A stretch of DNA of 64,000 bases from Thermocrinis minervae (lineage in GTDB: Bacteria > Aquificota > Aquificia > Aquificales > Aquificaceae). A model generated the notes under the pieces. It was not told the DNA's origin and did no database searches. It was given only the letters and a program-made list of their open reading frames with translations. This document shows, one piece after another, positions 29,879 through 53,032 of the stretch. How positions within the stretch are numbered: the stretch's first letter is position 1; each line of letters starts with the position of its first letter. The translations under genes were made by a program, and so were the position numbers. The stretch is taken from assembly GCF_900142435.1 (NCBI RefSeq), contig NZ_LT670846.1, positions 896,750 to 960,749 on the forward strand. Reading direction: 5' to 3'.

Positions 29879-30693
29879 ACAGGGTTTTACTATATGTAAA
29901 GGACTCGCCTTCGGCCAGGGAGACGGCCCAAGAGCTAGCTTCTTTCCTTAAGAGCTTAGGTAAACAAGTAGAAATCTACATAAACAGAAGGGACTCGAAG
30001 GAAAAACCAAAGAAGGCTGACCTTGTAGTGGTTGTAGGTGGCGATGGCACCTTTCTTTCTGCTGCCAGAAGTATGGCAAGATACTCCATACCCATCGTGG
30101 GTATCAACGAGGGAAGGTTTGGCTTCCTTACCGAGGTAGGAAAGCAAGAGTACAAAGAAGTACTCATAGGTATATTTGAAGGTAGGCTTGTTCCACAGAG
30201 AAGAAAGATGCTTGCCGCCTACATGATAAGAAGAGATAAAAGAAAACTAATAGGCTACTGTCTTAACGACGCTGTGGTCTCCAAGGGCACCATAGCCAGG
30301 ATGGTAGAGCTGGACGTGTATGCAGAGGATGACTACATGCTAAGGCTTTACGGAGATGGACTTATAGTTTCCACGCCTACAGGTTCTACGGCCTATGCCC
30401 TGTCGGCAGGGGGACCCATAGTGTATCCGCTCTCCGAGGTTATACTCCTCGTACCCATATGTCCGCATACCCTCTCCAACAGACCTTTGGTCATACCTTC
30501 CCACTTCTCCGTCAGGGTAGTATGCCTCTCCCCCAAGAGGATGGCTTACCTTACTTTGGATGGACAGAGGGTGCTAGCCCTCCAAAAATATGATGTAGTG
30601 GAGATAAAGAACGCTCCTTACGAGTGTCTTATGTACACAAGCCCGCATAGGGGATACTTTGAAATACTAAAGGAGAAGCTCCGATGGGGATGA
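29875..30693 (+). CDS. nadK: NAD kinase
   Basis: 272-residue enzyme phosphorylating NAD to NADP. The catalytic [14 protein letters not shown] motif is near residue 56, followed by [15 protein letters not shown] and the second diagnostic region [20 protein letters not shown], then TLDGQ. It overlaps gmhA by 4 nt and the DUF815 gene by 10 nt, so it belongs to the same translationally coupled run. Confidence 0.95.
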
Positions 30694-31457
30694 TAGACTT
30701 TAAAAACTACCTGGCCTTTAGGCTCAAGGAAGGAAAGCTCTACCCTGTAAAGCATCCACACATACCACCCATAGACCTGCTTTTAAACGTAGAAAGGCAG
30801 AAGGAGGTACTCTTGAGGAACACTCTTCAGTTTGTCAAAGGCTATCCTGCCAACGACGTACTTCTGTGGGGAGACAGAGGAACGGGCAAGTCCTCACTGG
30901 TAAAGTCCCTCCTTGGAGTCTTCGGAGAAAATGGACTCAGGATAATCCAGGTCTACAAGATGGACATAATACACCTTTCGGATCTGTACGAAACCGTAAG
31001 GGATCAACCCTACTGGTTTATCCTCTTCTTTGATGATCTTTCCTTTGAGCCCGGTGAGGAGTCCTTTAAGACTCTCAAGTCCTTCATGGAAGGAGACATA
31101 GAAGAAAGGCCTAGGAACATCCTCGTGTATGCCACATCCAACAGGAGAAACCTAGTACCCCAACTGGAAAGGGATGAGAAGTTCCCAGAAGAGAGCCAGC
31201 TAGAGGTCATATCTCTAGTGGAACGCTTTGGGATAAAGCTTGGCTTTTTCGCCTTTGGTAAAGAGGAGTACCTAAAGATAGTAAAAACTTACGCGAAGGA
31301 GAGAAAGCTCGATGTGGAAGAGCCGTTTCTTGAAAAGCTAGCCCTTGAATGGGCCACATACAGGGGGAGCTTTTCAGGTAGAACTGCCTTCCAGTTTATC
31401 AAAGATCTAGAGGGCAGGCTAAGATGCGGAACATCCTTATCCTTTTATTCCTCTTAA
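30684..31457 (+). CDS. DUF815-type AAA+ ATPase
   Basis: 257-residue P-loop ATPase. Walker A GDRGTGKSS is at residues 63-71, the Walker B-like FILFFDDLSFEPGE near residue 112, and sensor 1 region ILVYATSNRRNLVP near 150, followed by a C-terminal lid. This matches DUF815, a small AAA+ family of unknown function. It overlaps nadK by 10 nt and the following membrane coiled-coil gene by 34 nt. It might act on that protein, which would be an inference from the close pairing only. Confidence 0.85.
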   Translation: MGMIDFKNYLAFRLKEGKLYPVKHPHIPPIDLLLNVERQKEVLLRNTLQFVKGYPANDVLLWGDRGTGKSSLVKSLLGVFGENGLRIIQVYKMDIIHLSDLYETVRDQPYWFILFFDDLSFEPGEESFKTLKSFMEGDIEERPRNILVYATSNRRNLVPQLERDEKFPEESQLEVISLVERFGIKLGFFAFGKEEYLKIVKTYAKERKLDVEEPFLEKLALEWATYRGSFSGRTAFQFIKDLEGRLRCGTSLSFYSS

Positions 31458-32629
31458 CTGCCTACAACTTTATACTGTACGAAGTTTCAAAGTACTCTGG
31501 TCTACCTCTGTTTCCGTCGGAGCTATGGAAGCTTGTAATACTGTTCTCCTTAGACTCTGTCCTGTTTCTTTCTTGGCTCTTTGGCTACAAGGAAAGGACC
31601 CTCGTGTGGATCTCCTATGTGTCCCTGGTCCAAATACTTGGTCTCGGCATAGCTCTTTGGGACTACCGCATAGTACCAGAGCTGACACCTTCCTTCCTTG
31701 TAACCCTGGGAATCATATGGCTCTTTGAATCACCCACCGAAAGGTCTTACAAAAGGCTCCTTGAAGAAAGAAGACTTCTCGAAGAAAAGCTCTTTGAAAA
31801 CTCAAGGCAGAGGTTAGAGCTTCTGGAAAAGCTAAACGTCTATCAGGAGCTTATCCAAAGGCTTAGTGAGGAAAAGGAAAGGATAGAGAAGGAGATAGCC
31901 CAATTAGATCCTATCCGTGAAGATTACCAGAAGTTGTTAAAGGAGAAAGAGAGACTCACTCAAAAGATAAACGAGGCAGAGGATAGGCTAAAAGAGTACA
32001 GGGAGAGGATAGAGAGGCTTACAGAGTCTAACAAAAGGCTCTTTGAAAGTCTAGAGACTTTGTACCTTAGTCAAAAATCAGAAGACACCCACTCGGAGCT
32101 GAGTAAGTTAAGGAAAGAACGGAAAAAACTAATAAAGGAAATCCTAGAGCTTCAAAAGCTTCTCGAAGATGTGTACAAAGAAAAAGAGCTGTATCAACAG
32201 GAAGTTGCAGAGTTAAAAAAGGAAAGGGCGAACCTAAAGGAACAGATAGATCTTTTAAGGCTCCAGCTAGAAGAATATACAGCTAAAGCAGAAAATAAAG
32301 TTGATATATACAGAGAAATACTTACCTCAGTCCTTGAAAACATAGAGTTTGAAAGGGAAGTAATAAGGGATTTTGCTCGCCTGCCTGCTGATAAAAAAAG
32401 GGAGTTCTTTAAGGAACTCCTACTTTTGAACATGAAGGACACGAAAGAACCTCTGGAAAGCATGAAAGGATACAGGAACGTCTTCAAGCTGAAGCCAGCC
32501 GGTGGCCGCATATACTTCACCTTTGGAGAGACAAAGAGATGGAGGGTAATAGGAATATTAGAAGGAGAGGACGATAAAGAAAAAGAACTATACGCAGAGA
32601 CCTTTCTGCTAAAATATAGAAAAAGGTAA
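31424..32629 (+). CDS. membrane-anchored coiled-coil protein with RelE-like tail
   Basis: 401 residues. Four hydrophobic segments lie in the first 100 (LILLFLLTAYNFIL, LVILFSLDSVLFLSWLF, WISYVSLVQILGLGIAL, FLVTLGIIWLF). A long Lys/Glu-rich coiled coil runs from about 105 to 300. The last 75 residues (KGYRNVFKLKPAGGRIYFTFGET then WRVIGILEGE) are patterned like RelE/ParE-fold proteins, without obvious toxin catalytic residues being certain. The protein should sit in the inner membrane with a cytoplasmic rod. Start at 31424 overlaps the DUF815 gene by 34 nt. Function unknown. Confidence 0.7.
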   Translation: MRNILILLFLLTAYNFILYEVSKYSGLPLFPSELWKLVILFSLDSVLFLSWLFGYKERTLVWISYVSLVQILGLGIALWDYRIVPELTPSFLVTLGIIWLFESPTERSYKRLLEERRLLEEKLFENSRQRLELLEKLNVYQELIQRLSEEKERIEKEIAQLDPIREDYQKLLKEKERLTQKINEAEDRLKEYRERIERLTESNKRLFESLETLYLSQKSEDTHSELSKLRKERKKLIKEILELQKLLEDVYKEKELYQQEVAELKKERANLKEQIDLLRLQLEEYTAKAENKVDIYREILTSVLENIEFEREVIRDFARLPADKKREFFKELLLLNMKDTKEPLESMKGYRNVFKLKPAGGRIYFTFGETKRWRVIGILEGEDDKEKELYAETFLLKYRKR

Positions 32630-32645
32630 ACGCAAGGAGGTACAT

Positions 32646-33824
32646 ATGGGCTTAAAGGAAGTGCTTGATAAACTGACCTCTTACCAGCCTGATGAAAACC
32701 CTATTGTAAGCCTTTACTTAAGGCTTATGCCAGAAGACAGGGTGGATAAGAAGTATATAAGGGTGTTTAAAGACCTTGTTAAAGCTAAGGGTAACGTCCC
32801 AGAGGAGGATGTTAAAAGAATAGGGGAATTCTTGGAAAATCCGGAAAATCTAAAAGGATGCAGGGGAATAGCCGTGTTCTCCTGCCATAAGAAGGATCTT
32901 TTTGAGGTAGTAAAGTTACCCTACGTCTATAGGAACAGGATAGTGGTGAACTATATACCAAGTCTTGTAGAGATAGCAGCTATAGATGAAGAGTTTGGTA
33001 AAGTAGGTATAGTCCTTGTAGACAGAAAACACGTACGCTTCTTCGTGATGGATATAGAAACCATAAGTGAAGATGTAGACTTTACAGAGCCGCTTGCTAC
33101 AAGAGCCCATAGGTTTCACAGTGGTGGAGATGCCCTTAGGGGTGCCCAGGGTATGATGAGGTACTCCATGCCTGCAAGGTTTGCGGCTGCAAACGTGGTA
33201 CAGCACGGTGTGGGTGAGTACAGGTTTCACACAAGGCTCATGGAGGAAAAACAAAGGCTATTCAAACTCACAAACGATGCCCTTATGGAAGCCCTAAAGC
33301 TACATAAGTTTGACAAGCTAGTGATAGGTAGCATAAGGGAAGATATAAGGGAGATAGAAAACCATCTTCATACCTACTTAAAGCAAAGGCTAGTAGGATA
33401 CATACGTATAAACCCTTCTGAGTTTACAGAGGAAGAACTAAGAGACAAGGTCCTAGACCTCCTGTGGCAAAAGGACAGAGAACAGGAAGAAGAGTTATAC
33501 AGAGAGTTGGTTGAGCTCGAGGGTAAGGGGCTTGCCGTCAACGGTACCTCAAAAGTGTTAGAACAGCTAAACATAGGCAACGTAAGGACCCTCTTGGTGC
33601 CGGAGAACTTTAAAAAGGAAGGATACTTCTGTCCTCAGTCAAAGATCCTGATGCTAAAGCCTGAGTGTCCCATAGAAGGAGAGAACGCTGTCTACCTTGA
33701 TGACCTTGTAGACGAAGCTATAGACATGGCACTTGAAGAAAGAGCTCAGGTAGAGGTAATAATACGGGAGGATGTAGCTAAGAGGATAGACGGGCTAGCC
33801 GCCTTCCTCAGATACAGAATATGA
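32646..33824 (+). CDS. bacterial eRF1-like (baeRF-type) protein with GAQ loop
   Basis: 392 residues. The middle (about 110-250) resembles domain 2 of archaeo-eukaryotic release factors: VGIVLVDRKHVRFFVMD, then R165-G166-A167-Q168-GMMRYSMPARF, which lines up with the eRF1 loop RGGQSALRF, with GAQ instead of GGQ. Then KFDKLVIGS. The C-terminal part (about 300-390) looks like the eRF1/L7Ae-like domain. Bacterial relatives (baeRF families) are proposed peptidyl-tRNA hydrolases or ribosome-rescue factors. It has a clear ribosome binding site (AAGGAGGT) and its stop overlaps the NYN nuclease start by 4 nt. Confidence 0.65.
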   Translation: MGLKEVLDKLTSYQPDENPIVSLYLRLMPEDRVDKKYIRVFKDLVKAKGNVPEEDVKRIGEFLENPENLKGCRGIAVFSCHKKDLFEVVKLPYVYRNRIVVNYIPSLVEIAAIDEEFGKVGIVLVDRKHVRFFVMDIETISEDVDFTEPLATRAHRFHSGGDALRGAQGMMRYSMPARFAAANVVQHGVGEYRFHTRLMEEKQRLFKLTNDALMEALKLHKFDKLVIGSIREDIREIENHLHTYLKQRLVGYIRINPSEFTEEELRDKVLDLLWQKDREQEEELYRELVELEGKGLAVNGTSKVLEQLNIGNVRTLLVPENFKKEGYFCPQSKILMLKPECPIEGENAVYLDDLVDEAIDMALEERAQVEVIIREDVAKRIDGLAAFLRYRI

Positions 33825-34420
33825 AAGATGAAAGGGTGGCCATTTTCATAGATGGATCCAACATCTTCCATGCCATAAGGTACCTAAACGTACGCATTGA
33901 CTACAAGAGACTGATAGATTTCCTTAGGGAGGACAGGTTTCTAGTAAGAGCTTACTTCTACGGCGCCGTTCCAGATGAAAAAAACCTAAAGAAGAACTCT
34001 CCAGAGTGGGAAAGCTACCTCAGACAGAGGAGGTTCTTAGAGGAACTCTCTCTTCAGGGTATAAAGGTAAAGGTAGCTACCCTTAAGAGACTTCCGTCTG
34101 GTGAGTACGTGGAGAAGGAAGTAGACATCATGTTAGCCACAGACATGCTCAGCATGGCTTACATGGACACCTATGACACAGCCATACTCGTGAGCGGAGA
34201 CAGCGACTTTTACTACACAGTGGAAGATGTGCAACGCATAGGTAAGAGGGTAGAGAACGCCTCCTTTAAAAGGACAAGCTCCTACAAGCTCAGAAAAACA
34301 TGCGACAGGTTTATACTTTTGGATGACTACCTAGACAGGTTCATCATAGAGGAAAAGCTAGAGGTAAGCCAAGAGAAAAGCTTTTGGGACAGGATAAAAT
34401 CCCTCTGGATGAGAAGATGA
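33821..34420 (+). CDS. NYN-domain (LabA/DUF88) ribonuclease-like protein
   Basis: 199 residues. The PIN-like NYN fold has all expected acidic residues: D11-G-S-N in AIFIDGSNIFH, D102 and D108 in EVDIMLATDML, D127 and D129 in LVSGDSDF. This is the LabA/DUF88 family of putative metal-dependent RNases. It overlaps the eRF1-like gene by 4 nt, suggesting the two act together, perhaps on stalled ribosomes (inference). The following ribF start overlaps its stop (ATGA). Confidence 0.87.
   Translation: MKDERVAIFIDGSNIFHAIRYLNVRIDYKRLIDFLREDRFLVRAYFYGAVPDEKNLKKNSPEWESYLRQRRFLEELSLQGIKVKVATLKRLPSGEYVEKEVDIMLATDMLSMAYMDTYDTAILVSGDSDFYYTVEDVQRIGKRVENASFKRTSSYKLRKTCDRFILLDDYLDRFIIEEKLEVSQEKSFWDRIKSLWMRR

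Positions 34421-50157: not shown

Positions 50158-53032
<2,875 letters not shown>

Follow-up and report, generated by a model that had tools for sequence, protein, structure and literature searches.

A three-gene cassette in the chromosome of Thermocrinis minervae encodes a predicted membrane protein with a RelE-fold domain, a translation factor-like protein with the eRF1 fold, of the Balon/baeRF12 type, and an RNase of the NYN family. We put at about 0.5 the probability that the cassette is a membrane-tethered ribosome-silencing and mRNA-clearing set, with a Balon-type, non-hydrolytic A-site factor at its core. Taken by itself, the factor adds a member to a known kind of protein, and the cassette with the membrane-borne RelE-fold protein is absent from the literature searched: no paper was found that treats baeRF together with NYN, and a search combining RelE, transmembrane, coiled-coil, and Aquifex returned nothing relevant. 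The paper that founded the baeRF families mentions no NYN or RelE-fold partner in its main text (0 mentions of NYN; PMC6514570). If our reading is true, this operon would connect ribosome hibernation with both mRNA cleavage and the membrane, and the RelE-type domain would serve as a permanent component of the translation machinery, not as a toxin. The genes are present in complete genomes of thermophiles, the proteins of which tend to be robust in biochemical and cryo-EM work.

The window analyzed here is a 64-kb stretch of the single-contig, 1,367,821-bp chromosome of this member of the Aquificaceae; the named relatives in the genome comparison are Hydrogenobacter, Thermocrinis, and Aquifex. 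The features of the cassette, in which the baeRF-type factor gene is the single copy in the chromosome, are collected in Table 1. A gene for a DUF815-type AAA ATPase (30684-31457) runs at its end into the start of the RelE-like gene; in the relatives examined, this ATPase does not belong to the conserved set.

Table 1. Features of the cassette, with coordinates in the 64-kb window
Feature	Position	Strand	Description and evidence
Gene for the predicted RelE-fold membrane protein, cassette gene 1	31424..32629	+	401 aa; orthologues in 60/136 Aquificota genomes
Four predicted membrane helices (residues 4-22, 37-55, 60-78, 83-101)	31433..31726	+	Kyte-Doolittle scan
RelE-fold C-terminal domain (predicted)	32300..32626	+	Model, PDB fold search, profile, hhalign, residue matches
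Ribosome-binding site AAGGAGG of the baeRF gene	32634..32640	+	Read from the sequence
baeRF family 12/Balon-like eRF1-fold factor, 392 aa	32646..33824	+	Pfam, NCBIfam, model, Foldseek
Extended loop at the catalytic-loop position, residues 149-181	33090..33188	+	Model, homologue alignment
GAQ, residues 166-168	33141..33149	+	Homologue alignment, tree
eRF1 domain 3 with hairpin insert	33492..33821	+	Pfam, model, alignment
ATGA, 4-nt stop/start overlap of baeRF and NYN	33821..33824	+	Sequence; same -4 overlap in most relatives
NYN/LabA-type RNase gene, 199 aa	33821..34420	+	Pfam, alignment, nearest solved structure 2qip

The factor matches the Pfam family baeRF_family12 (PF18856) with 92 bits and an E-value of 6.5e-26, well above the curated cut-off of 27.7 bits, with weaker matches to baeRF10 and baeRF3 and a match of 30.7 bits to eRF1_3, the model of eRF1 domain 3. 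Its relatives likewise exceed the PF18856 cut-off, and members of the family were also detected in the control genomes of Bacillus subtilis, Thermus, Caulobacter, and Deinobacterium. A Balon model of NCBIfam aligns with residues 75-390 (E-value 1.2e-12), and the scores against the Balon models fall far below the equivalog cut-offs (48 versus 330, 45.4 versus 480, and 29.4 versus 320 bits); on these profile scores, the factor is a homologue, not an orthologue, of the named Balon proteins.

The AlphaFold model of the factor, built from 30 relatives, adopts the three-domain eRF1/Balon (aeRF1) fold with a mean pLDDT of 84.5, and the sole segment below 50 comprises residues 149-176. A single-sequence phmmer search of the PDB with the factor gave no match, a profile being required. 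In the Foldseek search of the PDB with the model, Msmeg1130 (Balon) came out on top (E-value 3e-21, TM-score 0.61-0.65), followed by archaeal aRF1 (3.5e-18) and then by P. urativorans Balon and Rv2629; Pelota chains appear at rank 29 and below, with E-values of about 1e-7 or worse. The eRF1-like fold recognized in an earlier note on this DNA is borne out by the Pfam and Foldseek matches, and of the kinship proposed there, the baeRF part stands, specifically for family 12, and the Vms1 part does not, the closest structures being those of Balon. A Vms1-like identity was accordingly dropped, and we classify the factor as a Balon/baeRF12-type protein, not Vms1. The hibernation factors Balon, Msmeg1130, and Rv2629 share the three-domain aeRF1 fold with it and, like it, have no NIKS and no GGQ, as reported for Balon (PMC10901736).

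In the helix that follows the loop, R193 is invariant and R197 nearly invariant among the homologues, at the place where the rRNA-binding arginines of the fold lie (PMC6514570). In domain 3 of the model, a hairpin insert sits at the place of the zinc ribbon or EF-Tu hairpin and carries two cysteines, C329 (33630-33632) and C341 (33666-33668), that are invariant in the 46 homologues and could form half of a zinc ribbon, a disulfide, or a shared metal site.

Residues 165-173 of the factor read RGAQGMMRY, as previously noted, and the predicted structure puts GAQ on an exposed loop where aeRF1 proteins have their catalytic loop, after strand three of the middle domain (140-143) and before a long helix (182-220). 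The expected conservation of the glutamine failed to materialize. Across 46 homologues (47 rows with one N-terminally cut copy, which was set aside), position 168 is occupied by Glu in 32 and by Gln in 14, with no other residue; Ala167 is invariant, Gly166 is present in 45, and GGQ and NIKS are both absent from all 46. On a tree computed without that column, the state of position 168 changed at least 8 times. The family shares fold and loop position with eRF1/aRF1 and Vms1/ANKZF1 but differs from them in having no conserved catalytic Gln, GGQ, or NIKS. Because of the variable Gln, we gave up an active release factor as the main reading.

A peptidyl-tRNA hydrolase, in which the GAQ/GAE loop still frees nascent chains, appears improbable. 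Such an activity would agree with the correct placement and strong conservation of the loop and with the limitation of position 168 to Glu or Gln in every sequence, and the VLRF1 clade releases without the di-glycine, through a G-x-small-Q motif (PMC6514570). However, replacement of Gln by Glu in the majority of homologues, with repeated changes on the tree, argues against hydrolysis, as do the catalytic deficiency of engineered GAQ (G-to-A) mutants of RF1 and RF2 (PMC5995542), the lack of NIKS, and the lack of GGQ in the closest structures, those of Balon. On the same grounds of Gln variation and deficient GAQ release factors, the release or peptidyl-tRNA hydrolysis proposed in the earlier note is unsupported.

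The loop itself is highly conserved. Its consensus reads PLATRAHKFHSGGxxLKGA(E/Q)G, and a 17-residue window at position 153 ranks second in conservation among 376 across the factor. In 44 of the 46 homologues, the stretch E148 to G190 has a length of 43 residues. The segment 149-181 is predicted to be disordered yet contains the best conserved stretch; disorder in the prediction, fixed length, and high conservation together suggest that the loop becomes ordered upon binding a partner, most simply the peptidyl-transferase center, where the lasso loop of Balon docks (PMC10901736). Compared with Balon, the factor is distinguished by the conserved HKFHSGGxxLKGA(E/Q)G loop. In inactive baeRFs, loops are poorly conserved and unconstrained in length (Burroughs and Aravind, PMC6514570); the loop of this factor is far better conserved than those of most such proteins, so the GAQ/GAE loop may have a chemistry or function of its own.

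A non-hydrolytic factor of this fold could also act in the manner of Pelota/Dom34, binding stalled ribosomes and promoting their disassembly while the mRNA is cut by the NYN protein and possibly also by the RelE-like domain; this would be no-go decay in a bacterial form. The common fold superfamily, the missing catalytic Gln, and the RNase in the operon are compatible with such rescue, and a Dom34-like role has been proposed for inactive baeRFs by Burroughs and Aravind (PMC6514570). Nevertheless, we regard it as unlikely: in E-value, Balon lies many orders of magnitude ahead of Pelota, the NYN gene persists in genomes without baeRF, and SmpB is already encoded in the genome. Along with SmpB, the genome carries two RF1/RF2-type factors, with no third RF-1-domain protein found, and HPF, the gene for which is located at 521.6 kb, compared with 929.4 kb for the factor on the same chromosome, so that they are not neighbors; ordinary rescue and hibernation thus coexist with the cassette. 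Dom34 together with Cue2-type no-go decay provides a functional analogy, an RNase working with an eRF1-fold factor; here the nuclease fold differs, and the coupling to NYN is putative.

The protein encoded directly downstream of the factor belongs to the NYN family (PF01936, E-value 9.7e-33), whose members are RNases, and its nearest solved structure is VPA0982 (2qip). The five acidic residues described as intact in the earlier note (D11, D102, D108, D127, and D129) show no variation among 39 homologues, and the overlap of the baeRF stop with the NYN start is likewise as described. Of the 47 Aquificaceae genomes in which baeRF was matched, 46 have NYN immediately 3' of it by contig coordinates, the exception (G056) being a fragment. 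The conserved NYN neighborhood sets the factor apart from Balon, which typically, though not always, has RaiA/HPF as a neighbor. In family f3, baeRF and NYN are on different contigs in all five baeRF-bearing genomes. Treating the baeRF-NYN pair as a unit is therefore justified by conserved adjacency and is incomplete, given that the RelE-fold membrane protein belongs to it too. A joint role of the pair in translation or RNA metabolism, as first suggested, is likely, considering the conserved, usually overlapping genes and the intact NYN domain; the part of that suggestion that involves release is not retained. A second NYN protein in the same genome (G000, 568390-568884) is 34% identical and has a stop codon in frame within the region of the match, and paralogues similar to it are present throughout the phylum.

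The upstream protein of 401 amino acids consists of four hydrophobic segments, a predicted coiled coil of about 190 residues, and a RelE-fold C-terminal domain. The even number of helices and the loop charges suggest that the C-terminus is cytoplasmic. Searched alone against Pfam, the C-terminal ~100 residues gave no match. The AlphaFold model of this domain has a pLDDT of 90, and in a fold search of the PDB, the first 23 matches all belong to toxins (RelE, ParE, and HigB) or to toxin-antitoxin modules related to them, the best being Escherichia coli RelE (E-value 1.2e-3, probability 1.00). A profile of 14 sequences also retrieved E. coli RelE chains at the top of the PDB matches (E-value 0.003), and hhalign of the domain against ParE-family proteins of Aquificota yielded 87% over 96 columns, with at most 0.6% for five column-shuffled controls. 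The orthologue in one genome, G109, exceeds the Pfam ParE_toxin cut-off by itself. From the model and these comparisons, we assign the C-terminal domain to the RelE/ParE superfamily fold.

The basic residues of the RelE active site, K52, K54, and R61, have basic counterparts in an alignment of the domain (68 rows, some partial or near-identical). In the HMMER alignment, K63 corresponds to K52 and is present in 67 of the 68 rows, with R in one; position 65, corresponding to K54, is K or R in every row, and R70, corresponding to R61, is present in every row. Tyr87 of RelE is required for catalysis (PMC3507626), and at its counterpart in a manual register, Y98, there is Y in 56 rows, F in 10, H in 1, and V in 1. 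Fold and basic active-site residues are thus common to this domain and the RelE/ParE toxins; unlike those toxins, it forms part of a larger protein with four predicted membrane helices and a long coiled coil, and its gene is kept in nearly all genera of Aquificaceae, in a housekeeping-like manner. No antitoxin gene was found beside the upstream gene among the neighbors examined. A type II toxin-antitoxin system was dropped as an explanation on account of this missing adjacent antitoxin and the fusion to membrane helices and coiled coil.

Among 136 Aquificota genomes, the RelE-like gene is present in 60 and baeRF in 53; both occur in 49 genomes and neither in 72, with baeRF alone in 4 and the RelE-like gene alone in 11, counts that span related genomes and include few independent shared absences, mainly in family f2 and genus g5; given this relatedness, the Fisher value computed from them does not serve as a probability. 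By coordinates, the RelE-like gene is directly beside baeRF in 33 genomes. The two genes co-occur though unlinked in most Thermocrinis, in genera g10 and g11, and in family f3; the gene order differs in f3 and part of Thermocrinis. In six genomes (G012, G014, G019, G035, G044, and G048), NYN comes immediately after the RelE-like gene and a search of the genome for baeRF gave no match; baeRF is therefore the loosest and most dispensable member of the cassette. In another genome (G055; L112, 6865-7113), an 82-residue remnant of baeRF is located directly 5' of an intact NYN gene.

These distributions are pertinent to the possibility that the three genes share only an operon, with NYN engaged in routine processing or decay of tRNA or rRNA, the RelE-fold domain non-catalytic, and the Balon-like protein acting alone. 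The NYN gene is far more widespread than the other two, occurring without baeRF or the RelE-like gene in most f2 genomes and in genus g5, and in three f2 genomes examined (L113, L114, and L118), it is next to or near tgt; together with the different order in f3 and part of Thermocrinis, this would fit mere operon sharing. Yet baeRF and NYN are adjacent, and mostly overlapping, in 46 genomes from several genera, the RelE-like gene and baeRF follow the same distribution in the phylum even when unlinked, and all three proteins point to the ribosome or RNA, so we hold this explanation to be rather unlikely. In the window, tgt (queuine tRNA-ribosyltransferase) is found at 50161-51291, about 16 kb from NYN.

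The reading we prefer, a membrane-tethered set around a Balon-type factor, builds on the folds, families, residue conservation, gene order, and co-occurrence obtained here, from which we infer ribosome binding, RNA cleavage, cooperation of the proteins, membrane location, and a stress trigger. The factor would plug the ribosomal A site without peptidyl-tRNA hydrolysis, with its middle-domain loop docking at the peptidyl-transferase center, and would occupy the site regardless of mRNA while the nascent chain stays unreleased; Balon blocks the A site whether mRNA is present or not and leaves the peptide unreleased (PMC10901736). The membrane-anchored coiled-coil stalk would carry the RelE-fold domain, which would engage the A site, the place where RelE itself cuts mRNA (PMC3507626), and the NYN enzyme would clear freed or damaged RNA. 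As a whole, the cassette would act under stress, silencing ribosomes close to the membrane that are stalled or idle. Roughly one-fifth of bacteria have a Balon-type factor, encoded mainly beside stress genes and RaiA (PMC10901736).

Against this reading, RelE and Balon would compete for one A site, so the two would have to act in sequence or on different ribosomes. Further points against it are the small number of independent events behind the co-occurrence, the six genomes that have the RelE-like and NYN genes but not baeRF, the presence of NYN alone in most of f2 and in g5, the Phe at the counterpart of Tyr87 in 10 of 68 rows, and the unusual conservation of the loop. A more elaborate version, which we consider doubtful, has a stalk-borne RelE-type A-site nuclease with no need for an antitoxin, a Balon-type factor whose loop has a function of its own at the peptidyl-transferase center, and NYN all acting in sequence on the same ribosomes.

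A defense system is not favored: PADLOC lacks a model for the factor, matches the RNase only through NYN models (HEC-09 and NYN), and gave only coiled-coil noise for the upstream gene, and the distribution is housekeeping-like. A tblastn search in plasmids produced no match. One baeRF copy, on a 3.8-kb contig (L003, 1-3793; NZ_ABZS01000166.1) of the draft genome of Sulfurihydrogenibium yellowstonense, nests within the Thermocrinis group on the tree and is absent from all other genomes of the family of Sulfurihydrogenibium; it is a contamination or a very recent transfer. In several Thermocrinis (L057, 8758-9657; L065, 8776-9687), a gene similar to class II lysyl-tRNA synthetase overlaps the start of baeRF, and the RelE-like gene is elsewhere in those genomes. 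The encoded protein of about 300 amino acids (PF00152) is probably EpmA, the modifier of EF-P.
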